Assembly: GCA_934045905.1 (NCBI GenBank)
Contig: OW203764.1
Location: 25,408,954-25,472,953, forward strand
Length of the DNA stretch: 64,000 nt
Source of the DNA: Leuctra nigra
Taxonomy: Eukaryota; Arthropoda; Insecta; Plecoptera; Leuctridae
Direction of reading: 5' to 3'
Shown here in pieces: positions 634 through 37,200 of this stretch. Below the pieces are notes generated by a model. That model made no database searches. It had not been told where the DNA came from and was given only the letters and a program-made list of their open reading frames with translations. The number at the start of each line of letters is the position of its first letter. Positions within the stretch are counted from its first letter, which is position 1. Position numbers and translations under genes: made by a program.

Positions 634-846
634 GCAGGCGAATCTTCCAACCTATCATTAGACAGGTATATTAGAGGGTCAGGCGAATCTTCCAAGTTGT
701 GTTGGAAGATTCGCCTGACCCTTCCTGTAAGGCGAATCTTCCGTGTACCCTTCTGATTACCTGAACCCATGCAGGCGAATCTTCCAACCTCTCATTCGAC
801 AGGTATAATCGAGGGTCAGGCGAATCTTCCGCAGGCGAATCTTCCG
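634..846. repeat. Cluster of AGGCGAATCTTCC motifs
   Basis: The 13-mer AGGCGAATCTTCC occurs near 636, 680, 730, 773, 818 and 833, and once inverted near 703-716. A longer segment of about 58 bp bounded by the motif (634-692) recurs at 772-830, 138 bp away. The inverted copy can pair with the copy just before it. This could be the terminal part of a transposon or a small satellite; the family is not recognised. Confidence 0.7.
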
Positions 847-1124
847 CCGACCATCCTTAACACCTATAAAATTACAAAAGAAAATTACAACCATCTCGCT
901 AGTAATTTGGTTATAAACGGAACATTTGGCGCTCTTCCGTCTTTGCCTGACTTTCGAGGTAGTCAGGTGGAAGGGTTGAGGTTGAGGACTCAAGCGGATG
1001 GTTGGTGTCTGGGGGACAATAGACAGGAGATCCTCGCTGGTTTCGTAGCCAACATTCCTTGACCACACAACTCTTGAGAATACCACGAGCTTCTAAAAGA
1101 TAAAGAACGTTATTGGCCAAACTA

Positions 1125-3281: not shown

Positions 3282-6200
3282 TTATTTATCGTATGGATTT
3301 TATTGGAATACAAAGTCTTATTAAATATTAATCACATATACTAAAAATAAAATAAATTGTTCTAAAAAATCTAAATTTTAACCATTTAAATTACAAATTT
3401 AAAGAGGTCAGCCAATCAATAGCTTCGCCTTTGAGGTCGGCAATATCCTGGATGTCACCAGGATATTTCAGGACAGCGCATTCCATCATAATATGATTGG
3501 TAGTTTGTTCCTGCTGCCCGCAGATGCAACTTGCGCTGTCAACGAACCCCCATTTGTGCATAAGGTAGTTGCATCGGCCTTGTTCTGTTCGCAAGCGATT
3601 TAGGTTGCACCAAGCCTTCCTTGGTAACTGAAACTGCAGGTGGTCCGATGGTCGACCTGTACTTGAGAAGCTGAAGATGGGACTGCTCCTGTTTCCTTGA
3701 ATCCACTGAGAATCCCATGTGCCACTGACCTCAAAGTTCTCGTCCAGCAATCTCTGAGCCAGAGCTAATGGAGGCTTTCTTGATTTTAGTCTAAAAAGCG
3801 GAGGATTATATAGGTCAGCCCTAATAGGTATATCAGGGTTGTTCACAATCTTCTCGTGCTCCTTCAGTAAAGCTTGTTTCCTCCGCAAGTCAGGTGGTGC
3901 AATATTGCTGAGTGCCGGTAACCAAGCAAGTGGAGTTGAGCGTAATGTGCCTGTTATCCGTCTCATGGTTGCGTTCAACTGCACATCAACTTTGCTGGTG
4001 TGGCAGCTAGTAAGCCAAACAGGAGCGCAATACTCAGCAGCCGAGTACACCAGAGCAAGTGCAGATATGCGAATACAGCTTGCGGACGCTCCCCATGATG
4101 TATATGCCAGCTTTTGAATGATATTGTTTCGAGTACGAAGTTTGGCGGCCGTGTTTGTTAGATGAGCATCGTATGTGAGAGTTCTATCAAGTGTTACGCC
4201 TAGGTATTTAGGTTTAGAATTGTGTTTCAACACCGCACCATTCATGACCACTTCCAATTGCCTATTTGCCTCGCTGTTGTTGAGATGAAAGCAGGTGACT
4301 TCAGTCTTCGTGGCACTTGGCTGTAATCGCCACTTTGCGCAATATTCGCTCAGCCCCTCTAAATCATCAGTTAGCATATTCTCCATATGGCTGAAGTCCT
4401 TATGCTGAACTGCATATGCCATGTCATCAGCATAGATGAATTTCCTCGCAATTGATGTAGGCAGATCGGCGATGTACAGGTTAAAGAGAGAAGGAGCTAA
4501 TACTGAACCTTGGGGGAGTCCGTTGTTTAACTTCCTGATTCTGCTGCAATCACCATTCATGAATACTTGAAAGTAACGATCACTCAACATATTACTAATG
4601 AGATCGCAAACCTTAAGACATGGAACTACTTTGAACAGTTTTGTCAGCAGACCCTTTTTCCAAACTGTATCATAAGCAGCTGTAAGATCAATGAAGGCTA
4701 CCGCTGTTTTCAGTTTTCTCTGAAAGCCATTCTCAATATGATTGGTAAGTCCCAGGACCTGATCGGTGCAATTTCTACCTCTCCTAAACCCTGCCTGCTC
4801 TAGTTGGAGCATATTTTCTATTTCAGGGCCAATACGATTATAAAGCAATCTCTCCAACAGTTTAAGTGATACTGACAACAGAGCTATGGGTCGATAGCTT
4901 TCAGGTTGGTCACAAGGTTTCCCTGGCTTCAGGAGAGCGATGATCTTGGTCTTTTTGAATATAGCTGGAAGTTTTCCAGTTTCCAAAATGTGGGTATAGA
5001 ACTGTGCAAGCCAAAGTCTTGTTTTACGACCACTATGAGTAAGGAACTCTGGATAAACGCTGTCGAATCCTGCCGCTTTGCCTGTCTTCGTGACATAAAG
5101 TGCTTTGTCAATTTCTTCTTCTGAGAATGGTCTCGAGAAGAAACTCTCAGTTTCGGCTTGTTTTCTAAGATCCTGCAACTCCTTATTCACTGTTCTTGTA
5201 AAGACTTTGTCCACCTTTGATTTAGACAACTGTACAATGCGTGAGGCAACTTGATTAGGGTGAATCTTTGGTTTGTTGGGAAGTGGTACCGAGGCTCCTC
5301 CTAATTTGCGCAAAACTTCCCACGCTTTTCGACTAGAATGCGTGAAGGACATGCTTTCAACTGTGGAGGTCCATTTTTCTCTTCGCATCTGGTCTAAAGA
5401 CTTCAGCAACTCTTCAGCAGATTCTTGACTACCGGTGTCACAATATTCTTCATACAGGCGGTCGCTTTCTTCATTCCAACAAGGAATGTACTCCTTGCGA
5501 AAACCCCGAGGGATGCAGTTTTTAGCAGTCTGTATGACGAGTCTAGAGAAACGATCGTAGCATTCTACAGTCGGTGGTATAAAACGAACTGCATCGTCCA
5601 ATCTCTTGCTATATTTTTCCCAATTGGCCTTTTGAAAGTTCCATCTGGGTTTACGTATGGAATTAACCAATGGGACTTTAATACCAACATCTAATATGAC
5701 AGGACGATGCTGGCTGCGAGGAAAACCAGGTAGGACATTTCTTGTTACGTGAACGGGCCGACCGTCATTATCAGTACTTACGAAGCATAGATCGGGGTTA
5801 TAATCCTTATTCCAGCGGGCTGAGTGGAACGTGCCTCTATCTTTGGAGTCAAAAATCAAGTTCATATTCTTATGATCAGCCCATGAAGCAATAGCTTCGC
5901 CGTTTTCATCACTTTGGTCATATCTCCAATCAATATGGTGGCTGTTAAAATCACCGGCATAAATTGATGGATGGTCGTAAGTTTGCAATGGTGTTGTCGG
6001 CCATTGAGTCCCAGGTGGTTTGTAAATATTTATAACTGTAATATTATTCACTTTGATCGCATTAGAGAATACATTGTTACATGAAGTACAATCGATCACA
6101 TCAACGTTTGCGATGTCCTCCTTAACATAAGTTGCAATACCATAGGTGGCGTGGTTAATAGAAGTTACCAATCGGTATCCCATAACTTTTCCTCTTGCTT

Positions 6201-6885
6201 CCAAGTCTGCATTACTGTCCGTATGAGTCTCTTGAATCAGTGCTACATCGATATTCTCTTCTTCCAACATCCTTGACAAATAGTCGGACTTAGATCTACT
6301 AATGCCTTCTATGTTCAATTGGCAGATCCGTAGTGACGCTCCAATATTCTTTGTAGCCGTTTGTGATGACAACATTCTATTCATAATTTACTAATTTTCT
6401 TCTTAATAATTATCTTAATTATATAAACCTTAATGACTATTCCATTGTATTCCAATTCTCTGCCAGGAGATCAACAATTGTTAACAGTTTGGCATCCGTT
6501 TTTGTAGTCTGTTTAATGTTAACCAGGTTGCACCGCTTGGAGGCAGACTACTTCGCAACCGCAATTTCTATAAACTCAGTCGATAATCTGCATCAATTTT
6601 CTTTATACCTTGGTTCTGTTTTTATGATCCAGTAGGCGTGATTTCTACAAATTATGTTTTCATGGAAGTTTGAGAGATCGAAATGGAGATGTTCACAGTG
6701 CCATAATTCACGATATCGTGTATGGAATATCAAAATGTATATCTTAGATCAAACCTGAGATCAGTATCTTCCTTTTGGTGTCTAATTCAATCAACAGCCA
6801 TGCAAACACACCATAAAAGGTAAATTAATTGATGCAGCTTCACAGAATTCAACCAGCCAAATCATCCACCGCCTTGTGGCTAGGC
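3281..6885 (-). mobile_element. Jockey-like non-LTR retrotransposon
   Basis: A LINE of about 3.6 kb is inserted in the CCGGAAGTGACGTCAT repeat. The repeat stops at CCGGAAG near 3281 and resumes at AAGTGACATCAT near 6884, which suggests a short duplication including AAGT. In element orientation the 3' end, at the low coordinates, carries an AAATAAATAAA-type tail after a ~110-bp 3' UTR. Only one large ORF (ORF2) is present. About 500 bp upstream of it is non-coding, so ORF1 is missing, through 5' truncation or family structure. Confidence 0.85.
3391..6384 (-). CDS. LINE ORF2: endonuclease-reverse transcriptase
   Basis: Uninterrupted 997-aa polyprotein starting with a true ATG. Residues about 15-235 form an APE-type endonuclease, with LNIEG near the start, LIQETHT, IYAGDFNSHH, NPDLCFV and a terminal SQHRPV where many relatives have SDH. 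Reverse transcriptase spans about residues 430-720, with motifs RPIALLSVSLKLLERLL, AGFRRGRNCTDQ, AFIDLTAAYDTVW (catalytic Asp), LPQGSVLAPSLFNLYIADLP and the YADD box (FIYADDMA). Near the C-terminus, CxCx8Hx4C (starting CICGQQ) is a zinc-knuckle-like motif usual in the jockey group. There is no RNase H domain. No frameshift or stop is seen, so it may be young and active. It nicks target DNA and primes cDNA synthesis in the nucleus (family knowledge). Confidence 0.93.
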   Translation of the reverse strand: MNRMLSSQTATKNIGASLRICQLNIEGISRSKSDYLSRMLEEENIDVALIQETHTDSNADLEARGKVMGYRLVTSINHATYGIATYVKEDIANVDVIDCTSCNNVFSNAIKVNNITVINIYKPPGTQWPTTPLQTYDHPSIYAGDFNSHHIDWRYDQSDENGEAIASWADHKNMNLIFDSKDRGTFHSARWNKDYNPDLCFVSTDNDGRPVHVTRNVLPGFPRSQHRPVILDVGIKVPLVNSIRKPRWNFQKANWEKYSKRLDDAVRFIPPTVECYDRFSRLVIQTAKNCIPRGFRKEYIPCWNEESDRLYEEYCDTGSQESAEELLKSLDQMRREKWTSTVESMSFTHSSRKAWEVLRKLGGASVPLPNKPKIHPNQVASRIVQLSKSKVDKVFTRTVNKELQDLRKQAETESFFSRPFSEEEIDKALYVTKTGKAAGFDSVYPEFLTHSGRKTRLWLAQFYTHILETGKLPAIFKKTKIIALLKPGKPCDQPESYRPIALLSVSLKLLERLLYNRIGPEIENMLQLEQAGFRRGRNCTDQVLGLTNHIENGFQRKLKTAVAFIDLTAAYDTVWKKGLLTKLFKVVPCLKVCDLISNMLSDRYFQVFMNGDCSRIRKLNNGLPQGSVLAPSLFNLYIADLPTSIARKFIYADDMAYAVQHKDFSHMENMLTDDLEGLSEYCAKWRLQPSATKTEVTCFHLNNSEANRQLEVVMNGAVLKHNSKPKYLGVTLDRTLTYDAHLTNTAAKLRTRNNIIQKLAYTSWGASASCIRISALALVYSAAEYCAPVWLTSCHTSKVDVQLNATMRRITGTLRSTPLAWLPALSNIAPPDLRRKQALLKEHEKIVNNPDIPIRADLYNPPLFRLKSRKPPLALAQRLLDENFEVSGTWDSQWIQGNRSSPIFSFSSTGRPSDHLQFQLPRKAWCNLNRLRTEQGRCNYLMHKWGFVDSASCICGQQEQTTNHIMMECAVLKYPGDIQDIADLKGEAIDWLTSLNL

Positions 6886-10625: not shown

Positions 10626-11204
10626 AGAGATAGTTCTGTAACATCCTTTTGAAACTGTGACACAGTGGAACAAGAGGAGGGGGGAGTCAAATAACCCATT
10701 TTTAATGTGACGTCTTTATGCACGGCCACTAATTAAATGTTCCAAAAAGTTTCCACTCACTTATATGCCGCTCTACGATCTGTTACAAATGATTGGATTA
10801 AATTATACTTTAGTATAGTGCATATTGATTGATTAAAAATAAAAATTGTTAATTTTAATTTAATTGAGCGCCGATTCTCAAAAGAGAGGTTCTGATGCTA
10901 AATCAGTCTGTAAAGTTATGTCGTTTTTTTTTTTTTTTACTGAACTCTCTACATAATACAGTACGTACAATAATAATACAAAATAATGCGACAAACATTT
11001 TCATGTTAATTGACATTGATCTGACCCAAGGATCTGGCCGAAGAAATACAACTTCTCGAAAGCAATGGTCACCTGTTTACTCCCGATAGGTAGGCACCCA
11101 CCACATCAAAGAAAATCGACGTAGTTCATACACTTGCCGCAGTTCAGTGCTAGTGTACGGGACAAGGAAGGGTTCTGCCAAAACAAGAAAGTGTCCAATA
11201 GTAC

Positions 11205-12215
11205 TGGAATAACGCCTACAAAAAGTTGGCGTTGTTCCAGTGGAATAACGCCAACAAAATGTTGGCGTTATTCCACTGGAAGAATGCCAACACTTTGTTG
11301 GCGTCATTCCACTAGAACAACGCCAACATTTTGTTGGCGTTATTCCAGTTTGAGGTCAGTTGGCGTTATTCCAGTGTCGACAAAATCGCAACGTCGACAC
11401 TGGAATAAAGCCTACAAAACGTATGCGTTCATTGTAGGTGGTCTTCCACTGGAAGAACGCCAACATAAAGTTGACGTTATTCCACTGGAACAACGCCAAC
11501 GTTTTGTAGGCGTTATTCCGGGGACGACAGAATTACATCTTACCACTGGATTAACGCCAACATTTTGTTGGCGTTGTTCCAGTGGAATAACGCCAACTTT
11601 TTGTTGGCGTTATTCCACTGGAACAACGCCAACAAAATGTTGGCGTTATTCCGGGGACGACAGAATTTCATGTTACCACTGGAATAACGCCAACATTTTG
11701 TTGGCGGTATTCCACTGGAACAACGCCAACATAAAGTTGACGTTGTTTCACTGGAATAACACCAACGTTTTGTTGGCGTTATTCCGGGGACGACAAAATT
11801 ACTTCTTACCACTGGAATAACACCAACATTTTGTTGGCGTTGTTCCAGTGGAATAACGCCAACAAAATGTTGGCAAAATGTTGGCGTTATTCCACTGGAA
11901 CAACGCCAACAAAATGTTGGCGTCATTCCGGGGACGACAGAATTTCATGTTACCACTGGAATAACGCCAACATTTTGTTGGCGTTATTCCACTGGAACAA
12001 CGCCAACATAAAATTGACGTTGTTTCACTGGAATAACACCAACGTTTTGTTGGCGTTATTCCGGGGACGACAGAATTACTTCTTACCACTGGAATAACGC
12101 CAACATTTTGTTGGCGTTGTTCCAGTGGAATAACGCCAACATTTTGTTGGCGTTATTCCACTGGAACAACGCCAACAAAATGTTGGCGTAATTCCGTTGG
12201 CGTTATTCCAGTTGG
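11205..12215. repeat. Array of self-complementary AACGCCAACATTTTGTTGG units
   Basis: About 1 kb built from near-palindromic ~36-bp units of the form TGGAATAACGCCAAC-ATTTTGTTGGCGTTATTCCA, joined by CACTGGAACAACGCC. The spacer ATTCCGGGGACGACAGAATT interrupts the array near 11517, 11649, 11782, 11926 and 12059. Spacings of 132, 133, 144 and 133 bp give a higher-order period of 277 bp (11651-11927 versus 11928-12204). Long frames on both strands follow from the lack of stop codons in the unit. Confidence 0.9.
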
Positions 12216-12235
12216 CGCTATTCAGTCGACTCCTT

Positions 12236-12648
12236 TGATAGTATCAAAATATCAAAAGATACTTTGATAGTATCAAAGTATCAAGTATCAAAAATTGTGT
12301 CAAAGATATTTTATCTTTGCTGCTGAGGAAGAATTTGGTTAAGGTGAGGGAGGGGGAGATCATTGACAAATGTGTTCTTAGGGGTTGGGTGAAAAAAGGG
12401 TATGTATGGGCGGAAGGGATTCCTGGAAAAAATGCCTAAGGTTCTAAACTGAAACATTTTAGTCCAAAATTCCAAAGTATCAAAAGTATCTTTTCGGTAA
12501 AAAGATACTTGATACTATTTTGAATATTAATTGATAATTGATACTTGATACTGACTCCAAGAAAAGTATCAAGATATAGATATTGATAGTATCAAGTATC
12601 AAAGATACTATCAAAGATACTTGTATCTTTGATAGTGCCCATCTCTGA
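12236..12648. mobile_element. hAT-like remnant with GATACT/AGTATC subterminal repeats
   Basis: Dense GATACTTTGATAGTATCAAAG-type words occupy both sides (12236-12310 and 12470-12640). The right end is GATAGTGCCCATCTCTG, which reversed gives CAGAGATGGGCACTATC, a typical hAT terminal sequence. The matching left terminus is missing or decayed. No transposase ORF. Confidence 0.6.
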
Positions 12649-13354
12649 CTACACCGTAAAACTACTATTTTTACATGTAATTTAGTTTCTCTCATTGCAG
12701 TTGAGGTAAAATTAAATTTACATTCAGGGTAAATTTTAAAATATACTATACAGAAAAGAAATTAAGAAACTGTAATTTTATATAAATTAGTGAGGAAAAA
12801 CGGCCACCCACTAAATTTCATATAAAAATAGCAGTTTTCATATTTATAGTGTATCCTCGTAAACAATTTCGTTATAAAATTCTTCTTATTTAGTTAAAAG
12901 TTTAGCTCAAGACTAGATCATGAATCTTGAAAACAATTAATCTGAACCTAAGAAATTTATTTTCATTTACTTTTCCTTGCAAGGCTGTTGTCGGATGTTC
13001 TAAACCATATGTAACAAATTCATAGTTTGCACGTGATGTCATCTCATTGTTGCCTGCCACCATCTTGAAGACACGCAGAATACCTGTAATTCTCTGCTTT
13101 TTTGACGATATTTTATAGTTATTGGATAATGGGTACCAGGGAAATTATATAGGCTCCGGAGATATTTTTAGTACAAAAAGGAATCACTCAAATTACAACA
13201 TTACATCGATTTACCTCAATCAAGTTATAATCTGACCCGTCAACGTGCCAACAAAATGTCCGTCCCCGGGTGGAAAATTCAAAGATATTGCTGATGTATT
13301 GCTGATACAAAACAAAAAAAGTTCGTGCAAGTTCGTGCAATTAAAAGTACTTAC

Positions 13355-13627
13355 CAGTCCGATTCCCTCGAAAGCGTATATCACGGTGCCGAAGAACAGC
13401 GGTATACTTCCTACGCTGGCCACATAGTTTGTCTCGTGCTCTGAGGGGATGTTCGTAGAGACGACAAACAGCGTCCCCACGATCCCGAGGAACATGAGGA
13501 TGTTGGCGACCAGAGACACAGGCACCAGGTACTTGAGATCGCGGATCCAGCAGGACAGCGTGATGGGCACCAAGATCACAGCCATGTGCACGCGCAGGTC
13601 GACCACGTAGCCGTAATGGTCCAGCAC
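13355..13627 (-). CDS. PAT1 exon 6, parent of the 147-bp array
   Basis: 273-nt exon, the same length as PAT2 exon 6, entered by CTCTCTAG and left by GTAAGT. It encodes [20 protein letters not shown], then [20 protein letters not shown] and the conserved [13 protein letters not shown]. Compared with all 51 array units it keeps GTC (Val of SLVAN). Compared with all but one it also keeps a four-base CCGC stretch (WIRDL). It is therefore the intact functional version. Its acceptor directly abuts the first array unit, so the natural polypyrimidine tract has been replaced by array sequence. Confidence 0.9.
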
Positions 13628-16600
13628 CTAGAGAGAACATGAGGAACATGAGGATGTTGGCCAGAGACACGGGCACCAGGTACTTGTGATCATCCAGCAG
13701 GACAGTGTGATGGGCACCAAGATCACAGCCATGTGCACGCGCAGGTCGACCACGTAGCCGTAATGGTCCAGCACCTAGAGAGAACATGAGGAACATGAGG
13801 ATGTTGGCCAGGGACACGGGCACCAGGTACTTGAGATCATCCAGCAGGACAGTGTGATGGGCACCAAGATCACAGCCATGTGCACGCGCAGGTCGACCAC
13901 GTAGCCGTAATGGTCCAGCACCTAGATAGAACATGAGAAACATGAGGATGTTGGCCAGGGACACGGGCACCAGGTACTTGTGATCATCCAACAGGACAGT
14001 GTGATGGGCACCAAGATCACAGCCATGTGCACGCGCAGGTCGACCACGTAGCCGTAATGGTCCAGCACCTAGAGAGAACATGAGGAACATGAGGATGTTG
14101 GCCAGGGACACGGGCACCAGGTACTTGAGATCATCCAGCAGGACAGTGTGATGGGCACCAAGATCACAGCCATGTGCACGCGCAGGTCGACCACGTAGCC
14201 GTAATGGTCCAGCACCTAGAGAGAACATGAGGAACATGAGGATGTTGGCCAGGGACACGGGCACCAGGTACTTGAGATCATCCAGCAGGACAGTGTGATG
14301 TGCACCAAGATCACAGCCATGTGCACGCGCAGGTCGACCACGTAGCCGTAATGGTCCAGAACCTAGAGAGAACATGAGGAACATGAGGATGTTGGCCAGG
14401 GACACGGGCACCAGGTACTTGAGATCATCCAGCAGGACAGTATGATGGGCACCAAGATCACAGCCATGTGCACGCGCAGGTCCACCACGTAGCCGTAATG
14501 GTCCAGCACCTAGAGAGAACATGAGGAACATGAGGATGTTGGCCAGGGACACGGGCACCAGGTACTTGAGATCATCCAACAGGACAGCGTGATGGGCACC
14601 AAGATCACAGCCATGTGCACGCGCAGGTCGACCACGTAGCCGTAATGGTCCAGCACCTAGAGAGAACATGAGGAACATGAGGATGTTGGCCAGGGACACG
14701 GGCACCAGGTACTTGAGATCATCCAGCAGGACAGTGTGATGGGCCCCAAGATAACAGCCATGTGCACGCGCAGGTCGACCACGTAGCCGTAATGGTCCAG
14801 CACCTAGAGAGAACATGAGGAACATGAGGATGTTGGCCAGGGACACGGGCACCAGGTACTTGAGATCATCCAACAGGACAGTGTGATGGGCACCAAGATC
14901 ACAGCCATGTGCACGCGCAGGTCGACCACGTAGCCGTAATGGTCCAGCACCTAGAGAGAACATGAGGAACATGAGGATGTTGGCCAGGGACACGGGCACC
15001 AGGTACTTGAGATCATCCAGCAGGACAGTGTGATGGGCACCAAGATCACAGCCATGTGCACGCGCAGGTCGACCACGTAGCCGTAATGGTCCAGCACCTA
15101 GAGAGAACATGAGGAACATGAGGATGTTGGCCAGGGACACGGGCACCAGGTACTTCAAATCATCCAGCAGGACAGTGTGATGGGCACCTAGATCACAGCC
15201 ATGTGCACGCGCAGGTCGACCACGTAGCCGTAATGGTCCAGCACCTAGAGAGAACATGAAGAACATGAGGATGTTGGCCAGGGACACGGGCACCAGGTAC
15301 TTGAGATCATCCAGCAGGACAGCGTGATGGGCACCAAGATTACAGCCATGTGCACGCGCAGGTCGACCACGTAGCCGTAATGGTCCAGCACCTAGAGAGA
15401 ACATGAGGAACATGAGGATGTTGGCCAGGGACACGGGCACCAGGTACTTGAGATCATCCAGCAGGACAGTGTGATGGGCACCAAGATCACAGCCATGTGC
15501 ACGCGCAGGTCGACCACGTAGCCGTAATGGTCCAGCACCTAGAGAGTACATGAGGAACATGAGGATGTTGGCCAAAGACACGGGCACCAGGTACTTGAGA
15601 TCATCCAGCAGGACAGTGTGATGGGCACCAAGATCACAGCCATGTGCACGCGCAGGTCGACCACGTAGCCGTAATGGTCCAGCACCTAGAGAGAACATGA
15701 GGAACATGAGGATGTTGGCCAGGGACACGGGCACCACGTACTTGAGATCATCCAACAGGACAGCGTGATGGGCACCAAGATCACAGCCATGTGCACGCGC
15801 AGGTCGACCACGTAGCCGTAATGGTCCAGCACCTAGAGAGAACATGAGGAACATGAGGATGTTGGCCAGGGACACGGGCACCAGGTACTTGAGATCATCC
15901 AGCAGGACAGTGTGATGGGCACCAAGATCACAGCCATGTGCACGCGCAGGTCCACCACGTAGCCGTAATGGTCCAGCACCTAGAGAGAACATGAGGAACA
16001 TGAGGATGTTGGCCAGGGACACGGGCACCAGGTACTTGAGATCATCCAGCAGGACAGTGTGATGGGCACCAAGATCACAGCCATGTGCACGCGGAGGTCG
16101 ACCACGTAGCCGTAATGGTCCAGCACCTAGAGAGAACATGAGGAACATGAGGATGTTGGCCAGGGACACGGGCACCAGGTACTTGAGATCATCCAGCAGG
16201 ACAGTGTGATGGGCACCAAGATCACAGCCATGTGCACGCGCAGGTCGACCACGTAGCCGTAATGGTCCAGCACCTAGAGAGAACATGAGGAACATGAGGA
16301 TGTTGGCCAGGGACACGGGCACCAGGTACTTGAGATCATCCAGCAGGACAGTGTGATGGGCACCAAGATCACAGCCATGTGCACGCGCAGGTCGTCCACG
16401 TAGCCGTAATGGTCCAGCACCTAGAGAGAACATGAGGAACATGAGGATGTTGGCCCGGGACACGGGCACCAGGTACTTCAAATCATCCAGCAGGACAGTG
16501 TGATGGGCACCAAGATCACAGCCATGTGCACGCGCAGGTCGACCACGTAGCCGTAATGGTCCAGCACCTAGAGAGAACATGAGGAACATGAGGATGTTGG

Positions 16601-19600
16601 CCAGGGACACGGGCACCAGGTACTTGAGATCATCCAGCAGCACAGTGTGATGGGCACCAAGATCACAGCCATGTGCACGCGCAGGTCGACCACGTAGCCG
16701 TAATGGTCCAGCACCTAGAGAGAACATGAGGAACATGAGGATGTTGGCCAGGGACACGGGCACCAGGTACTTGAGATCATCCAACAGGACAGCGTGATGG
16801 GCACCAAGATCACAGCCATGTGCACGCGCAGGTCGACCACGTAGCCGTAATGGTCCAGCACCTAGAGAGAACATGAGGAACATGAGGATGTTGGCCAGGG
16901 ACACGGGCACCAGGTACTTGAGATCATCCAGCAGGACAGTGTGATGGGCACCAAGATCACAGCCATGTGCACGCGCAGGTCGTCCACGTAGCCGTAATGG
17001 TCCAGCACCTAGAGAGAACATGAGGAACATGAGGATGTTGGCCAGGGACACGGGCACCAGGTACTTCAAATCATCCAGCAGGACACCATGTGCACGCGCA
17101 GGTCCACCACGTAGCCGTAATGGTCCAGCACCTAGAGAGAACATGAGGAACATGAGGATGTTGGCCAGGGACACGGGCACCAGGTACTTGAGATCATCCA
17201 GCAGGACAGCGTGATGGGCACCAAGATCACAGCCATGTGCACGCGCAGGTCGACCACGTAGCCGTAATGGTCCAGCACCTAGAGAGAACATGAGGAACAT
17301 GAGGATATTGGCCATGGGACACGGGCACCAGGTACTTGAGATCATCCAACAGGACAGCGTGATGGGCACCAAGATCACAGCCATGTGCACGCGCAGGTCC
17401 ACCACGTAGCCGTAATGGTCCAGCACCTAGAGAGAACATGAGGAACATGAGGATGTTGGCCATGGGACACGGGCACCAGGTACTTGAGATCATCCAACAG
17501 GACAGCGTGATGGGCACCAAGATCACAGCCATGTGCACGCGCAGGTCCACCACGTAGCCGTAATGGTCCAGCACCTAGAGAGAACATGAGGAACATGAGG
17601 ATGTTGGCCATGGGACACGGGCACCAGGTACTTGAGATCATCCAGCAGGACAGCGTGATGGGCACCAAGATCACAGCCATGTGCACGCGCAGGTCGACCA
17701 CGTAGCCGTAATGGTCCAGCACCTAGAGAGAACATGAGGAACATGAGGATGTTGGCCATGGGACACGGGCACCAGGTACTTGAGATCATCCAACAGGACA
17801 GCGTGATGGGCACCAAGATCACAGCCATGTGCACGCGCAGGTCCACCACGTAGCCGTAATGGTCCAGCACCTAGAGAGAACATGAGGAACATGAGGATGT
17901 TGGCCATGGGACACGGGCACCAGGTACTTGAGATCATCCAACCGGACAGCGTGATGGGCACCAAGATCACAGCCATGTGCACGCGCAGGTCCACCACGTA
18001 GCCGTAATGGTCCAGCACCTAGAGAGAACATGAGGAACATGAGGATGTTGGCCATGGGACACGGGCACCAGGTACTTGAGATCATCCAGCAGGACAGCGT
18101 GATGGGCACCAAGATCACAGCCATGTGCACGCGCAGGTCGACCACGTAGCCGTAATGGTCCAGCACCTAGAGAGAACATGAGGAACATGAGGATGTTGGC
18201 CATGGGACACGGGCACCAGGTACTTGAGATCATCCAACAGGACAGCGTGATGGGCACCAAGATCACAGCCATGTGCACGCGCAGGTCGACCACGTAGCCG
18301 TAATGGTCCAGCACCTAGAGAGAACATGAGGAACATGAGGATGTTGGCCAGGGACACAGGCACCAGGTACTTGAGATCATCCAGCAGGACAGTGTGATGG
18401 GCACCAAGATCACAGCCATGTGCACGCGCAGGTCGACCACGTAGCCGTAATGGTCCAGCACCTAGAGAGAACATGAGGAACATGAGGATGTTGGCCAGAG
18501 ACACTGGCACCAGGTACTTGTGATCATCCAACAGGACAGTGTGATGGGCACCAAGATCACAGCCATGTGCACGCGCAGGTCGACCACGTAGCCGTAATGG
18601 TCCAGCACCTAGAGAGAACATGAGGAACATGAGGATGTTGGCCAGGGACACGGGCACCAGGTACTTGAGATCATCCAACAGGACAGCGTGATGGGCACCA
18701 AGATCACAGCCATGTGCACGCGCAGGTCGACCACGTAGCCGTAATGGTCCAGCACCTAGAGAGAACATGAGGAACATGAGGATGTTGGCCAGAGACACGG
18801 GCACCAGGTACTTGAGATTATCCAGCAGGACAGTGTGATGGGCACCAAGATCACAGCCATGTGCACGCGCAGGTCGACCACGTAGCCGTAATGGTCCAGC
18901 ACCTAGAGAGAACATGAGGAACATGAGGATGTTGGCCAGGGACACGGGCACTAGGTACGTGAGATCATCCAGCAGGACAGTGTGATGGGCACCAAGATCA
19001 CAGCCATGTGCACGCGCAGGTCGACCACGTAGCCGTAATGGTCCAGCACCTAGAGAGAACATGAGGAACATGAGGATGTTGGCCAGGGACACAGGCACCA
19101 GGTACTTGAGATCATCCAACAGGACAGTGTGATGGGCACCAAGATCACAGCCATGTGCACGCGCAGGTCGACCACGTAGCCGTAATGGTCCAGCACCTAG
19201 AGAGAACATGAGGAACATGAGGATGTTGGCCAGAGACACGGGAACCAGGTACTTGAGATCATCCAGCAGGACAGTGTGATGGGCACCAAGATCACAGCCA
19301 TGTGCACGCGGAGGTCGACCACGTAGCCGTAATGGTCCAGCACCTAGAGAGAACATGAGGAACATGAGGATGTTGGCCAGAGACACAGGCACCAGGTACT
19401 TGAGATCATCCAACAGGACAGTGTGATGGGCACCAAGATCACAGCCATGTGCACGCGCAGGTCGACCACGTAGCCGTAATGGTCCAGCACCTAGAGAGAA
19501 CATGAGGAACATGAGGATGTTGGCCAGGGACACGGGCACCAGGTACTTGAGATCATCCAGCAGGACAGTGTGATGGGCACCAAGATCACAGCCATGTGCA

Positions 19601-22600
19601 CGCGCAGGTCGACCACGTAGCCGTAATGGTCCAGCACCTAGAGAGAACATGAGGAACATGAGGATGTTGGCCATGGGACACGGGCACCAGGTACTTGAGA
19701 TCATCCAGCAGGACAGCGTGATGGGCACCAAGATCACAGCCATGTGCACGCGCAGGTCGACCACGTAGCCGTAATGGTCCAGCACCTAGAGAGAACATGA
19801 GGAACATGAGGATGTTGGCCAGGGACACGGGCACCAGGTACTTGAGATCATCCAACAGGACAGTGTGATGGGCACCAAGATCACAACCATGTGCACGCGC
19901 AGGTCGACCACGTAGCCGTAATGGTCCAGCACCTAGAGAGAACATGAGGAACATGAGGATGTTGGCCAGGGACACGGGCACCAGGTACTTGAGATCATCC
20001 AGCAGGACAGCGTGATGGGCACCAAGATCACAGCCATGTGCACGCGCAGGTCGACCACGTAGCCGTAATGGTCCAGCACCTAGAGAGAACATGAGGAACA
20101 TGAGGATGTTGGCCAGGGACACGGGCACCAGGTACTTGAGATCATCCAACAGGACAGTGTGATGGGCACCAAGATCACAGCCATGTGCACGCGCAGGTCG
20201 ACCACGTAGCCGTAATGGTCCAGCACCTAGAGAGAACATGAGGAACATGAGGATGTTGGCCAGGAACACAGGCACCAGGTACTTGAGATCATCCAACAGG
20301 ACAGTGTGATGGGCACCAAGATCACAGCCATGTGCACGCGCAGGTCGACCACGTAGCCGTAATGGTCCAGCACCTAGAGAGAACATGAGGAACATGAGGA
20401 TGTTGGCCAGGGACACAGGCACCAGGTACTTGAGATCATCCAACAGGACAGTGTGATGGGCACCAAGATCACAGCCATGTGCTCGCGCAGGTCGACCACG
20501 TAGCCGTAATGGTCCAGCACCTAGAGAGAACATGAGGAACATGAGGATGTTGGCCAGAGACACGGGCACCAGGTACTTGAGATCATCCAGCAGGACAGTG
20601 TGATGGGCACCAAGATCACAGCCATGTGCACGCGCAGGTCCACCACGTAGCCGTAATGGTCCAGCACCTAGAGAGAACATGAGGAACATGAGGATGTTGG
20701 CCAGGGACACAGGCACCAGGTACTTGAGATCGCGGATCCAACAGGACAGCATGATGGGCACCAAGATCACAGCCATGTGCACGCGCAGGTCGACCACGTA
20801 GCCGTAATGGTCCAGCACCTAGAGAGAACATGAGGAACATGAGGATGTTGGCCAGGGACACGGGCACTAGGTACGTGAGATCATCCAGCAGGACAGTGTG
20901 ATGGGCACCAAGATCACAGCCATGTGCACGCGCAGGTCGACCACGTAGCCGTAATGGTCCAGCACCTAGAGAGAACATGAGGAACATGAGGATGTTGGCC
21001 AGGGACACAGGCACCAGGTACTTGAGATCATCCAGCAGGACAGTGTGATGGGCACCAAGATCACAGCCATGTGTACGCGCAGGTCGACCACGTAGCCGTA
21101 ATGGTCCAGCACCTAGAGAGAGAATGGGAGATGATCTCGCTGTTCTTGAACAGGGGCCCTATTTTAGAACTTTTAAATTCCCAATTCCACTAGAATTCAA
21201 TTCCATACAATGTTAATCCTTATGGCCGTGACTGAATTCCATCAGAATGGAAATGGAAAATCGTTCTAGAATAGACCTCCAGGTCGCTAATTTAATCAGT
21301 CATCAGTCATCATTCTTCACTCATCTCTCATCTCTCATAGCGCATAATTCTTCACTCATCACCCATTACTCAGCAATTGCTCATCGCTCATTCATGATAA
21401 TCACTCATCATGTACCTAGCTCATAATTCTTCACTCATCACTCATTCCTCTTCACTCATTGCTCATTGTTCATCACTCATTACTCATGAGTATGGCACAA
21501 GATTATGGACTCATTCAATGTAACATTTTCACTCTATCAACTTTTTGTTGAGCAACTTGGTTCTTTCTTATCATCACTAAGTGATGATAGATTAGATTCA
21601 GTTAGATTTTGAAATCAGAGATTGTTTTGAAAACCAAAGTTCCGTTTTTACCAAAGCTTTAGATTTCCTTATTCTTGAATTTTCTTATCAGAATTAGTAA
21701 AGTAAGAGCAAAATGTTCTTATTCTATACATTCAATAGTACTTCTAGTAATTGTAAAGTGTAGTACTAACTTGTTTGGTATTCTCCGAGATGAACACGAA
21801 ATACACGCAGCAGAATCCAAGCTGCGTGACGCAGAGGAACACATTTACCATGACTCTGCAATGAAGATGAATGTTGCAATCATTGAGGCTGTTGCACTTC
21901 TATCTGCCGTATGTTCAAAGAGTTCGAGAAGATGCTTACCTGAACGGGCCCGTGAATTTCGTGAATTTGGCTGGCCCAGTCTTAAAAGCAAGATCAATTG
22001 TTTCTGAAAAAGTTGGTATTTCTTTGCAGCCAGTTCTTTTCCTCATTTCACGAGCTGCTGAGAGCTGGAAAAACATACTTGGAGATAGAAAATCAGCAAT
22101 GTATTAAATGTCAATTTGTTACCATGAAAAAGAGAGACAAGTATATTAAAACATCGAAATTCTAAAATGGCTGCCACAAGGACACATCATAACACGGTTT
22201 GCAAATACTAAATAAGAAATGAATACAGAAACAAAAAACATTGAAAATGTCAAATCGCTATAACTAGAGGATTAACAAATAGTGTTGCAAAAACTTATTA
22301 CGTTTAATTACTACGATAACAGTTGACAAAGGTCAGTATAATGCCTCTTGCTCCGTAAAAAATATACCAATGGAATTGCTTCATTGTACCAATACTTTAA
22401 TTAATTGAGTATAATGAGAGCTGGAGTGTTTCCATTTCATTTCAATTTGGCAATCGAAGGGGCAAAGTACCATTTTACTCTGGTTGAGAATTGAGCATTG
22501 GTTTGGTTGGTTGATTGATTGATTGATTGATTGATTGATTAGTGTTGTTTAACTGCGCATCAACAGCGAGTCAATTTGCGCACATTAAGATTTTGTTAAT

Positions 22601-25380
22601 TTTGTTGAATACTAGGGAGGACATGGAGAGGGATCGACCTAACGGCCCCGATCCGGGGTAGTCTGAAACTGGTGGGAAAGCCAGGTCAGAATGGGGACAT
22701 ACCGGGGAGGGAGGGAGGCTTCGGGCCGGTGGGACCTGATTTCAGGGGGATCACCATCTCGAGGGGGGAGGCCGACCCGAGGGGCCCGCGAATTTGGGCG
22801 GGCATGGGACTAGATCGACCCTGAACTGCACTTAGGTAGCAGTTCATCGGTGAGGTATTGGTTTGGTGTTTGTGTATAATGCTAGACGTACGAGTAAATG
22901 CTGGCTGTGCACGCAGACAATGCCCAGGAAGAGAGTCAGGATCGGAGCCAGGATCAGACCGCAGTTCTTGAACGCCTCTCCCATCGAGAACATCCCTGGA
23001 CCGATGTTGCCTTTCAGCAGATGCACCAGAGTCTCGAAGTATCTGCAACATCAGTTGGCACGTCAAACATCCGACATAAAAGTTAGGGGACATATTACCA
23101 TTAGTTAATCTTCAGTTTAGTTAACCTCCACTTCGGGAAATGTGGTGAATCACCATACACTGATGAATAGATTAAAACACTGCAGTCAATGTAGACTGAG
23201 GTTAATTTAAACTACATACAGGCCAATAAAATGAAGAATAATGCAATCTGAAGAGAAACAGCCCCCAAAAGAGAGTTCTTCTGATTATTTTATATTTTTA
23301 GCCAATATTTAGAAAATTTGTAAAATATGTGTAGATACCCTATTTAAATTATATTACACTTACAGGCATACATTCTGTGTTTTTTGTTTAATTGTGGATT
23401 TATTTTATATTTTTGTAAGGGTAGGTATGACTCAGTTCTGATTACATTTTAGTTATTTCCTGACTGCCAGATTGTGCGACTCCCCTTCGTCCTGAACCAA
23501 ATATCGATGGCGATAAAAATGTACAATATGACCAAGGCGTTCTTTATGGTCAGCAGCATTTATGAAATTGAACCTTCTAAGCACTATATATATTGATTAT
23601 TAAATTATTAATGAAATTATTTGTTGCTTGCATATATGTGTCAACAAACTGTAATAATGCAATACATATCTAATTGATAACACTATCACTACTAGTAGTA
23701 AGCTCATTGTTGTAACTTATGTTTTCAATGAATGCCTCTCAACTTCAAGTACCAGATAAATCTAGATTGTCTCACCTTTCATCTTTATAATCACCTTGTG
23801 TGAATGCAAGAAACAAGTGACTCATAGGTTTCAAATCAATCAATCAATCATTTTGACGGGACACCTTTGTACTTTAAACTGGCGATTTTGGACTTACGAT
23901 GTTGGATGATCCACCGTGAAATGTTCCGGAATTTCAGCTTCTTTTGCAATACTTCGTTTGATTCTGAAACAGAAGGAAATACATTTAAATTACAATTTGT
24001 TACGATTTATAAACAGCAAAACGTATTATTACTGAAGTGAACAATCTAGGTGAAAAGATCAAAACATCCACATTTATTTTATTAGGGAATCTTGGATTAC
24101 ATTTTGTACTCTGATACATTTTTTTGTTTTGCAAAGTTGTATCGAATGGAAGACTTAGAATAGGTACAATGATAATCGATTAATCACATTTTTGAATAAT
24201 TGTTTATTAATATTTTGCCAATGTTAGTGGAAAACTATACCATTGGCGCAAAAGCAGTCCAAAAAAATTATTGGTCACAATATTGTTAGCAAACGTAAAA
24301 ATTGGTTCACACAATTCTCACAATTTTTTGGCTTGTGCAAATTTTGCATGTGTTTTGTTGTCTCAATGATTTTATAGTGAGTAGTAATTTAGTAAATTCT
24401 AAATGTATATCATGAGACCTTTCTCACAGACTATGAACTATGTCGCAACAAAATTACAAATTTCACCGGATTTCATTGACTTTGTATTGATAAAACAATC
24501 AATGGATAAAACTAATAAAACTTAACGAATTTCTTTCTAGTGATTGAACGTTCATCGACAATGATGGTCTTTGACCCGACTAATCCGTTATATCATGCGA
24601 CGTAATCCGTAATCATCTCCACACCTCCAATACCGCCGTTCTTACGCTTCGAACTTTGATCTTGAGTCAATAAACATAATAAATAAATACATCAATATAC
24701 AGATATCATTGTTTATATCATCAGGTGCACTATAGTCCATAATCTGAACGTTTTAAACATATTAGCGATCTTTACACCTAGAAAGATAAATATATTTGAT
24801 AAATAATCCACATTGCATTTTGTGATCACTAAAGAAAACCTCAAAATTACATTTATTGTACATCGTAAAAGGATACAATTATATGACAATCCATAGTTAT
24901 TAACTATTAAACTTTACGTACAATATAACAGTGGTAAGGAGGCGGTCGTGGCCTTTTAGTAGGGAACACTCATAAAATTTAGTTCTAGACAGAGACAACG
25001 AAAAAACTCAGTAATGAAGGATGGCCGCGGGAATCGAACCCGGAACCTCTCGGATGCAAGTTCAGAGAAATACTGCCTGAGCCACTTTGCGGCTTGAAAT
25101 TAAATAAATTTTTTAAATGTTAACACCATTAAAAAAATCTTGAGTCCACATTTTTGCATGCAATCTTTTACCATGACTTGGTGACTAACTTGAGAATGTG
25201 GTTATGAATTGAGTGCTACACTCACCCATTTTCCCGCACCGCCTTCATGGCATGCGCCTCAGCATCCGTGTCCGTCTCGTACGTACTGAAGTCGGAAGGG
25301 AGGCCATCTTTGTTCCGCCATTGTGAACTTCCGGTCGGTATCACGTAGGAGGAGGCTGCTTCGTCTTCGCTAGTAGCCAT
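13355..25380 (-). CDS. PAT1: SLC36-like proton-coupled amino acid transporter (partial)
   Basis: Six coding exons read 5' to 3': 25226-25380, 23898-23963, 22892-23042, 21940-22064, 21771-21855 and 13355-13627. Together they give 285 codons in one frame. The first ~70 residues are a hydrophilic cytosolic tail starting [11 protein letters not shown]. Exon 3 holds the first membrane helix with [18 protein letters not shown]. Exon 5 has [16 protein letters not shown]. Exon 6 has [20 protein letters not shown] and ends EGIGL before GTAAGT. SLC36 proteins have 11 helices and export or import small amino acids with protons at plasma or lysosomal membranes. Exons 7-9, present in both paralogues, are not seen between 1 and 13354; they may lie beyond the window or be lost. 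An AG acceptor just 5' of the ATG implies an upstream non-coding exon. Confidence 0.85.
13628..21119 (-). repeat. 51 x 147-bp tandem array of a 3' splice site plus half exon
   Basis: The array fills most of the intron between PAT1 exons 5 and 6. In gene sense each unit holds TTCTCTCTAG, then GTGCTGGACCATTACGGCTA onward to ATCCTCATGTTCCT, where it joins the next unit. From 13627 to 21112 is 7485 bp. Allowing for eight units with +1, one with +4 and one with -24 gives exactly 51 x 147. Units carry a 4-nt deletion after TGCTGGATC and a 3-nt deletion in SLVAN. Most substitutions are shared by few units, so expansion is recent. The 147-bp unit has no stop in one minus frame, which gives frames of up to 1361 codons that I do not consider genes. 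Confidence 0.95.
17287..18346 (-). repeat. Block of seven 148-bp variant units
   Basis: Seven successive units carry an extra T (GGCCATGGGACAC on the plus strand; usual form GGCCAGGGACAC) near 17311, 17459, 17607, 17755, 17903, 18051 and 18199. An eighth is isolated near 19670. The extra base breaks the long open frame in each unit. The clustering shows local amplification of a single mutated unit. Confidence 0.92.
21140..21290. mobile_element. Short inverted-repeat element
   Basis: GGGGCCCTATTTTAGAAC on the left is mirrored by GTTCTAGAATAGACCTCC on the right. The interior has paired GGAATT/AATTCC words. It lies just upstream, in gene sense, of the array in the same intron. Probably a small MITE. 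Confidence 0.5.
21295..21490. repeat. Degenerate TCACTCAT minisatellite
   Basis: About 190 bp of variants of TCACTCAT, CTCATCAC and TTCTTCACTCATC. They lie in the PAT1 intron between exon 5 and the array. Ordinary minisatellite. Confidence 0.75.
22500..22540. repeat. (GATT)n microsatellite
   Basis: Seven or so GATT units preceded by TGGTTGGTT. Intronic in PAT1. Confidence 0.8.
22615..22835. other. GC-rich insert in PAT1 intron 3
   Basis: About 220 bp of unusually GC-rich sequence (GGGAGGGAGGGAGG, GGGGCCCGCGAA, GATCGACC words). It starts about 60 bp beyond the exon 3 donor in otherwise AT-rich intron. One reading frame contains MVIPLKSG, faintly like WVIPLKPR encoded near 53240 on the minus strand, so both may come from one mobile element. 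Origin unknown. Confidence 0.4.
24931..25096 (-). mobile_element. tRNA-derived SINE, copy 1
   Basis: On the minus strand, GTGGCTCAGGCAGT resembles a pol III A box and GGTTCCGGGTTCGATTCCC is a near-consensus B box. Between them an anticodon-arm-like CTCTGAACTTGCATCCGAGAG would present TGC (alanine type). The tRNA-like head is followed by a ~90-bp body ending in CGACCGCCTCC. It sits in PAT1 intron 1. A diverged relative lies at 40204-40366. Confidence 0.8.
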
Positions 25381-34267: not shown

Positions 34268-37200
34268 TCACGTTGGCTCTCCTAACGCAAGTGCTTTGGA
34301 CAGTTCCACTATACTGATATAAGTGCCGGTGATGAACCCGAAGATGCCGATGAGGAAGATGAAGGCGTTCTTCGCGAGGGCGAGTTTTCCGATGTCGTCC
34401 CAGCGAGTGACGACGTCGAGGATGGCGGGCAGAAGCAGCGCGAGGGCGGTACTGCTGACGGCGCCGACCAGGGAGATGACCAGCCCCAGGTGGGGGACAA
34501 CCTCCGCCAACACGACTGCAACATATAGCTGACATTAGACATGAGGATCCCGTCAGGAGGCGGTGCTGACGGCGTCCACAAGCCGTACAGGAGGCGGTAC
34601 TGCTGACGGCGCCGACCAGGGAGATGACCAGCCCGAGGTGGGGGACAACCTCCGCCAACACGACTGCAACATAGCTGACATTAGACATGAGGATCCCGTC
34701 AGGAGGCGGTGCTGACGGCGTCCACAAGCCGGACAGGAGGTGGTGCTGACGGCGCCCACAAGGGAAAGATTGTTTGAAGAGGAATTAGCTTCATTTAAGC
34801 AATAGGCACCTCGTTATTTTTCATATTCCCGCCCAAATGTGTTCTAACAAAATAATCTAAAAATATTTACCTAGGTACGTTTGAAGTACCTACCGTGAGT
34901 GTATACCTATTAAATTGGGTTAAACTTGTTCAAATATTTTTACATCCAATAGATGTGACATATGTCACAAATGTACTATACTCGCTCTATTTTATCTGCA
35001 GATTCCACTTAGCATAGAGATTGTAACGGCGTCTACGTCACACTCTCTAGTCCCTAACCTTCTGGAGACCAATGTGCAGGCGCGTAGGAAGGGGGGGGGG
35101 GGGATGGGGGAATTATTCCCCCCCCCACTCGAGCAGGCTTACCCCCCCCCCATTCAACATACAAAATTAAGTTTAATTAAAAATTGTTTTAATTCTAAAA
35201 AAACGCCCTGCGAGTTATTTGTTGAATTATTATGGATTATGGAGCTAATTGTTGTTATTTGAGCAGTCGATTATAAATCGATTTTAAAATGTTTATTCGA
35301 AAAATTGCCCTGCAGGGCAACAATTGGATTCTTTTTGCTTCAGTTTGTGCATTTTAGAGCCCCAGAATCACTTTTCACTGGTTTTAATTCTAAAACCTCC
35401 TGCGGGGCTAGAACCCCTTCCGGTCCGGGTGTCGCAATCTCCCCCCCCCCCCCCCCCCCTCCGTTTGACTCACATGTGAAGATGACGAGCAGACTCCTGT
35501 AGACAGTCTCGACGATCAGAGGGTATTTGAATGGACCATATCTTGAGTTGATGCCCGGCCAGATGATGATGATTGGCACGTACATTTGTATCGCGTACGT
35601 GAACATTATTCCCACGGAGATGGACATCTTTATGCACTGAGACAAACTAGACGACAGAACATACAGTTTTAATTATTATTTTATACTATGAGTGTAATAT
35701 ATATTAAGATCGATTGTGTAAAAATTACAATCAATTTGAATGGAACGAAAATTATGGAATCTTGAAGTTGAACGTACAATCTGAATATTTTTTCCCCCAC
35801 TAATCTGTTTTCAAGCTCAACTTCAAGATTCAATAACTTTCGTTACATGTATTGATATTGATTGATATATTTACACAATCGATCATAATCTATTTTGAAT
35901 ATAATTTGAAATTTTAAGCTTGATATCGCACGTATTTGTGAAGAAACAGCGTCCCGGCCATTGAAAGTTTTCTAGACGCGCGTTATTTGAGCTGCGTATA
36001 ATCAATTTTTTGAAAACCAAATTTTTACAGCTGTTACTTTTTTCCTACAGGAGGCCAAGTCTTGAAACTTACGCTTTCAGGACGCAAACGCTCTCGGACG
36101 TCATAAAGTCCCATTTACTGTAAGAATGACGACCTTGAAATCTACTGTTAACTGTTTATCTTAATTTTGAATAAGGTTTTATGACTAAATAACATCTGTA
36201 ATAATAATTATAATATTAATAAATTGTTTCCAATAGATTGCTGGATGACAATCAAATAAGTGGCTTGACTTTATGTTTCAATGTCGATCACTCTTACAGT
36301 AAATGGGACTTTATGACGTCCTAGAGCGTTTGCGTCCTGAAGGCGTAAGTTTCAAGACTTGGCCTCCAGTAGTAATGTTTTAGAAACAAGCCAGATTTGA
36401 AGATTTGCGCATAGAGTTTGGGGAGCGAACTGCATTGAACTTATTTCTACAATTAATCTTCATTCGAACATTACTAACTACTTCCGGTAAAAAGAGAACA
36501 TTCATTCAATCGGTACCCACCCATGCCACCACTTGTAATGTTGAATTCCCAAAACAAGATACTTTTGTCGGATTATTCTAATTCTTTTCAATGCAAAAAT
36601 AATTAACCTTTGAGATAAACATCAGTCTTTTCAGTCATTTTGAGAGTTATGATTGACTGTTCAGAGATATGATCTCTAATTCAGTTAATCCGTATGAAAT
36701 CTGAAGATGCAATATCGAGTCTTATGAAATAAGAGATACCATCTAATCTACAGCAAACTTGTTATAGTAACTAATTATCTCTTAACCTGCCAGAATCTAA
36801 TTTTTATAACCTACATTTCATCTTTCGGAAGATTCAGAGTCAGACTTCCTTTGACATTGTCTCCGAATTGCAGATAGCCCAACGATCCCATGCAGATGAG
36901 TAGGATGGTGACGATTCCCATGCCGACGTTGAGGACACCTAGCGGCATCCCGAAGTATCTTGTCACTCTCATCTGTGACTGTAGTGGCAGCACCTGCAAC
37001 AATCAAGGTTCATTCAAGTGCTGTCGTCGCTATCGATGTATTTTTACTAAAAGTAGTAAGAGATGGTGTTGCTTTCGATGTCAATATTTTCAATCAATGA
37101 AAATTCATATCTATTATACTTATATATTAATTTTTTGGATTTTTTATTCAATGTCAGCAGTGGCGGCTATTTGGCTTTACAACAGGTGTTCAATTACATA

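Follow-up and report, generated by a model that had tools for sequence, protein, structure and literature searches.

How is the correct 3' splice site chosen when dozens of near-identical copies of it lie upstream in the same intron? This question is raised by a 64,000-nt stretch of the plecopteran Leuctra nigra (assembly GCA_934045905.1, contig OW203764.1, positions 25,408,954 to 25,472,953 of the forward strand; hereafter the window), in which a PAT1-type transporter gene on the minus strand, gene A, carries 51 tandem units at window positions 13628-21112, adjoining its intact exon 6. Each unit ends in the acceptor (3' splice site) that precedes the next one. Duplications of intron-exon boundaries that resemble minisatellites are known as "mirages" from amphioxus globin genes (BflGb6 and BflGb9, and Adh3 earlier; PMC3087553). 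The array in gene A is probably a minisatellite of this type that has no function and is spliced out with its intron.

Anatomy of the array and its host gene

The features of gene A that the analysis relies on are as follows, with a slash marking an actual or would-be splice boundary.

13355..13627, minus strand: exon 6 (numbered as in the first-pass annotation), intact, 273 nt, with the true acceptor before 13627 and the donor CTG/GTAAGT
13628..21112, minus strand: the 51-unit array; a unit consists of exon 6's first half without 3 and usually 4 nt, and ends in the next acceptor, TTCTCTCTAG
17009..17131, minus strand: unit 28, 123 bp, with an internal deletion
17279..18314, minus strand: units 20-26, seven 148-bp units in a row with a common extra A
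19638-19785: unit 10, the eighth 148-bp unit
20668..20818, minus strand: unit 3, 151 bp, the sole unit retaining the 4 nt CCGC
21113..21770, minus strand: remaining native intron, whose acceptor TTCTCTCTCTAG now precedes decoy unit 1
21771..21855, minus strand: exon 5, donor CAA/GTTAGT, weak by U1 energy
21940..22064, minus strand: exon 4 (our label), upstream of exon 5
22892..23042, minus strand: first transmembrane exon (TM1) of the array gene; additional N-terminal exons lie outside the model

The intron between exons 5 and 6 (21771 to 13627) spans 8,143 nt, of which the final 7,485 nt are the 51 units. Tandem Repeats Finder (TRF) reports a single array at 13487-21121 with a period of 147 and 52 copies including exon 6 itself; its scores of 11612-14217 leave no concern about a chance origin. 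Splitting the region at the acceptor yields 52 acceptors, one of which belongs to the true exon at 13627 and the others to 51 decoy units, whose exon-first bases run from 21112 to 13774. The first-pass annotation had placed 51 copies of a 147-bp unit at 13628..21119 within an intron of about 8.1 kb. The array, its start, the count and the intron length all stand; the array proper stops at 21112, positions 21113-21119 being native intron, and the spacing is exactly 147 in 41 of the 51 units, the others measuring 148 (eight), 151 (one) and 123 (one).

Within a unit, the first half of exon 6 is followed by a second copy of CTCATGTTC and then by the last intron bases, TCTCTAG. Relative to exon 6, GTC is missing from 51 of 51 units and a further 4 nt from 50, in line with the deletion that had been annotated in most of them. 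The acceptor ahead of unit 1 is the native TTCTCTCTCTAG, while those of the units read TTCTCTCTAG; the original acceptor thus now fronts a decoy, and the acceptor of the true exon has an exon-derived upstream part. CTCAT motifs that resemble branch sites occur at -22 and -13 of that true acceptor. There are 37 distinct sequences among the 51 units, and similar units cluster as neighbours or runs, although similarity declines only slightly with distance (4.4 mean differences at lag 1 versus 5.0 at lag 12). The longest exact self-repeat inside the array is 292 nt, and a 35-mer spanning the unit junction has 47 exact matches in the 536-Mb genome, all of them within the array.

Read in the frame of exon 6, the 147-nt unit comprises 49 codons, the last of which is the UAG of the next acceptor, so that use of a decoy without further splicing would usually stop at the next unit; the unit rows listed contain one TAG each, with two in one row. 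Through the frameshifts of the eight 148-nt units, open frames arise that reach 1361 aa. We considered a protein made from this 49-residue repeat frame and rejected it, since the openness follows from a period divisible by three and no sign of use was found.

Joined with the array spliced out, the seven modelled exons of gene A give 415 residues with zero stops; three of these exons lie to the left of the window, at -8047 to -10440 in its coordinates. In this model the splice sites were picked to fit homology and the N-terminal exons fall outside the 415 residues. The product aligns to positions 7-409 of 410 of Aa_trans and matches PAT1 in the PDB (1.1e-74), which bears out the annotated identity, and its best named match is from the cockroach Diploptera punctata (50%; 54% over 212 residues). 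Gene A and a paralogue in the same window, gene B, share the lengths of their first six exons, including the 273 nt of exon 6, and are 67% identical, with a nonsynonymous divergence (dN) of 0.25 and a synonymous divergence (dS) of 1.80.

Recurrence in PAT genes and relation to known systems

Arrays of this kind recur in the same genome. Our PAT survey covered 263,954 bases (the window and 20 loci) plus one 5-kb extension (L049), with exons taken as 72 intervals from a translated search outside decoy zones; some intervals contain more than a single exon (two), and the search missed at least one that is known. Acceptor-edge arrays were found at nine exons of eight PAT genes, with 1 to 51 decoys seen, and AG is present in all 146 acceptors. 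The nine arrays are listed here with acceptor counts that include the true acceptor, followed by the sole array that does not lie at an acceptor.

Gene A, exon 6: 52 acceptors, usual spacing 147
Gene B, exon 9, 34516..34765, minus strand: 2 acceptors, spacing 148; one full decoy and one partial copy, the true exon being 34268-34515
Gene D (L012), exon 6: 7 acceptors, usual spacing 101
L033, exon 6: 4 acceptors, cut by the locus end, usual spacing 136
L037, exon 5: 16 acceptors, usual spacing 137
L038, exon 5: 16 acceptors, usual spacing 137
L047, first exon: 17 acceptors, usual spacing 95
L047, exon 7: 5 acceptors, usual spacing 128
L046/L049 (the 5-kb extension), exon 8: 27 acceptors, usual spacing 149
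L048, 8624-9083: 101-bp unit in about four copies, each taken from the last PAT exon's end and including the stop codon

In the sequences shown, the true exons beside the nine arrays have open frames, and a GT donor follows each internal one. The L037 and L038 arrays have common flanks, which probably reflects a single event that was copied along with the gene. No donor-edge array was found in the surveyed PAT loci among tandem pairs that measure 40 nt or more and share 20 nt or more with a PAT exon. For periods of 60-500, TRF reports 19 arrays in the surveyed sequence, 9 at PAT exon edges and 10 elsewhere; the nine are eight of the acceptor-edge arrays and L048, the exon 9 array of gene B being absent from its list. 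The usual spacings range from 95 to 149 bp, with three of them at 147-149, and so lie at or below the 147 bp of nucleosomal DNA, which is possibly a coincidence.

The first-pass annotation knew of no described system of this sort. This does not hold, since the mirages of amphioxus share the anatomy: BflGb6 units of 150-160 bp combine the 3' end of an intron with the 5' part of the next exon (PMC3087553, excerpt). In both systems tandem units with splice signals span an intron-exon boundary, are homogenised inside and distinct at the edge, and leave the authentic exon intact. In gene A the repeat unit crosses the boundary of exon 6, which is open and, as in gene B, 273 nt long, and the 37 distinct sequences among the 51 units, with like units in runs, accompany an atypical unit 3 that alone keeps the 4 nt. 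The PAT arrays therefore belong to the mirage kind already known from amphioxus; what is new is the size, 51 units against the 6 and 3 of two BflGb6 haplotypes, and the recurrence in eight genes of one family. The two also differ in that the amphioxus excerpt includes a donor-side case, at a 3' exon boundary, and no such case was found in the PAT loci surveyed. The excerpt further reports length and somatic instability, and presents mirage arrays as a proposed source of new introns.

Such a gain is described, in an excerpt on the RNA-dependent RNA polymerase (RdRp) gene of potato, for two copies of a tandem duplication over an intron-exon boundary (PMC4974935). There too the duplicated piece joins the 3' side of an intron, acceptor included, to the 5' side of the next exon, and the duplicate became a new spliced intron that recruited a GTAAG donor and took its branch site and pyrimidine tract from the parental intron. 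Array A, in contrast, has 51 copies, has no such donor, and the region upstream of its AG is mostly exon-derived. The Rogers model of intron gain by AGGT duplication (PMC4974935, PMC3087553) has a counterpart in the AG/GT at 52 of 52 unit boundaries of array A. However, this AGGT lies on an existing boundary and not inside an exon, and GT after AG is missing in six of the nine arrays. In Dscam-type arrays of mutually exclusive exons, many tandem exon copies likewise precede a constant part, but there each exon is whole and has its own acceptor and donor. The units of array A are truncated exons, about half of exon 6, without CTG/GTAAGT or another proper donor, and are mostly out of frame.

Strength and probable fate of the decoy splice sites

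The acceptor AG is intact at all 52 sites (51 decoys and the true site), and the 24 nt upstream and 6 nt downstream are identical in 47 of the 52, the true site included, which leaves 46 of 51 decoys equal to it. The annotated acceptor look-alikes are thus present in every unit, and by sequence the decoy acceptors are locally as good as the true site. Donors present another picture. The consensus unit contains 13 GTs. The best by U1 energy (-5.2) is the unit boundary, TAG/GTGCTG, with 5 of 9 consensus matches, and the best by consensus is CAA/GTACCT, with 6 of 9 matches and a U1 energy of -2.8; the donor of exon 6 itself reaches -8.8 and 8 of 9. By these consensus and U1 energy estimates, a functional donor within the unit is unlikely.

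The unit anatomy shows a tandem duplication over the 3' splice site of exon 6, which joined the exon interior to about the last nine intron bases. We suggest that the unit then lost 3 and 4 nt, spread by slippage or unequal exchange and became partly homogenised. At its downstream end, the array leaves the true exon intact. Each unit would supply an acceptor and, on the estimates above, no strong donor. In long introns, splice sites nearest to each other across the exon are favoured, according to an excerpt of PMC9225289, and the donor of exon 6 would therefore be expected to choose the acceptor at 13627. It is most likely that the two pair and that the array leaves as inert intron, with some leakage into decoys being likely.

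Several points weigh against this reading. Of 18 usable real PAT donors, several have U1 energies of -5.1 to -5.4, like the GT of the unit boundary, and two have 5 of 9 consensus matches; the unit-boundary GT even exceeds two donors of gene A, those of TM1 (-1.2) and exon 5 (-1.4). When 3' sites in a long intron are equally strong, PMC9225289 reports an upstream preference that is reduced and not reversed. Finally, this reading does not account for the preponderance of arrays at acceptor edges over donor edges; exon definition treats both exon edges alike.

Retention of AG in 146 of 146 acceptors over the nine arrays could be taken for functional conservation of the decoys, and we dropped this explanation after comparing columns in those six arrays that have six or more units of the usual length. 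The number of distinct changes in a column was 0.129 in the unit body, 0.128 in the intron tail and 0.100 in the first 20 nt of the exon, and the 12 AG columns of these arrays held 0 changes against about 1.55 expected (Poisson 0.21). Variation in the rest of the unit is so low that AG retention is no better than expected, and there is no sign of constraint on the decoy AGs.

This result bears on an array that acts as a regulatory sink, in which part of the transcripts would splice to decoys, meet the UAG and undergo nonsense-mediated decay, so that array length would set output. The 46 decoys equal to the true acceptor over 24 nt upstream, the in-frame UAG that closes each 147-nt unit and the merely reduced upstream bias in long introns all favour such a sink; the AG columns give it no sign of constraint, and reverse transcription PCR (RT-PCR) suggested regular splicing of the amphioxus mirage genes (PMC3087553, excerpt). 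We regard it as unlikely. The regulatory readings of the first-pass annotation, which extended to circular or multi-exon RNAs, find no positive support here: AG retention is as expected, and the best unit donors are poor by consensus, though their U1 energy overlaps the weak end of the real donors in the family. A gene that is silent or dying, with the array as one of its wounds and splicing directed to decoy 1 without a functional message, would fit the native acceptor in front of a decoy, the exon-derived upstream part of the true acceptor and the weak donor of exon 5. Against this, all seven modelled exons are open with splice sites, exon 6 still has the 7 nt that the units lost, and the sister arrays likewise precede open exons, which makes decay of the gene rather unlikely.

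Stepwise (recursive) removal, in which one or several units at a time would be excised at AG/GT as zero-length exons, draws on the AG/GT at every boundary and on the -5.2 of the boundary GT. It seems very improbable, given the 5 of 9 donor consensus positions of TAG/GTGCTG and the six arrays that have no GT after AG. We consider it equally improbable that a real repeat was inflated in length by the assembler. The array length is that of the assembly, and with exact self-repeats of up to 292 nt the copy number may be off; however, the 37 distinct unit sequences, contigs of tens of megabases and eight other arrays with different units all argue for a genuine array. A mirage-type minisatellite, probably without function, accounts best for these observations. 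The 51 near-identical acceptors and the eight smaller sister arrays form a natural titration of acceptor competition, and bear on the question whether exon definition is sufficient to select, from many equal 3' splice sites, the last one.

Acceptor-edge polarity and neighbouring features

The two-sided sign probability of the bias towards acceptor edges is 0.004 when all nine arrays are counted (9:0), 0.008 for 8:0, and 0.03 for 6:0, which also counts the three exon 6 arrays as one. Compared with the native intron, the intron part of the unit measures 9 nt in A, 26 (22 exact) in D, 11 in L037/L038, 26 at the first exon of L047 and 19 in L046. It is obscured by extra partial copies at exon 7 of L047 (52) and exon 9 of B (10 up to an indel, longer beyond), and L033 is cut by the locus end. 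With breakpoints spread evenly along the unit, intron parts this short would seem unlikely, but five cases from one gene family are thin evidence.

These five independent cases, with units starting 9 to 26 nt before AG, and the nine acceptor-edge arrays against no donor-edge array would fit a process that is active in this genome and targets 3' splice sites. Units would be copied from first-step splicing intermediates (the lariat joined to the 3' exon) by reverse transcription from inside the exon to about the branch point, reinserted into the gene and then multiplied. Counting against this origin, the lengths of 9 and 11 nt are shorter than the usual branch-point distance, the L048 array sits at a stop codon, and donor-side mirages exist in amphioxus (PMC3087553, excerpt); we hold it to be improbable. 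If it were true, mirages would be footprints of splicing itself. The acceptor-only pattern in any case makes their origin testable.

Outside the PAT family, two introns (L050 and L051) reached through SNF-family matches with long open frames were checked and contain no tandem repeat, which is no evidence of absence, because a Pfam search is insensitive to such arrays: of the known arrays, the positive control PF01490 revealed just one or two (on C11), and of these a few units.

Further repeats were observed in and around these genes. The intron after exon 6 of gene A holds a LINE-type element (window 3394-6387, minus strand) with a 998-aa open frame that includes endonuclease and reverse transcriptase domains, and a second minisatellite (window 11203-12196) of near-palindromic units of about 36 bp (GGAATAACGCCAACA..TGTTGGCGTTATTCC), which are possibly hairpin-forming. 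At L011, a 129-bp repeat (758-1079, plus strand) lies inside an open frame at 43 residues per unit; it appears to be a coding minisatellite and belongs to an unrelated exon. By eye, a dispersed G+C-rich repeat (CTCGAGATGGTGATCCCC...) is common to the PAT intron at window ~22600-22850 and the SNF intron of L051, on another chromosome. On C11, C12, C2 and C6, twelve SNF (SLC6-type) matches, found beside many multi-exon relatives, each have a single open frame (692-770 aa) that covers the domain almost completely, and therefore look intronless.

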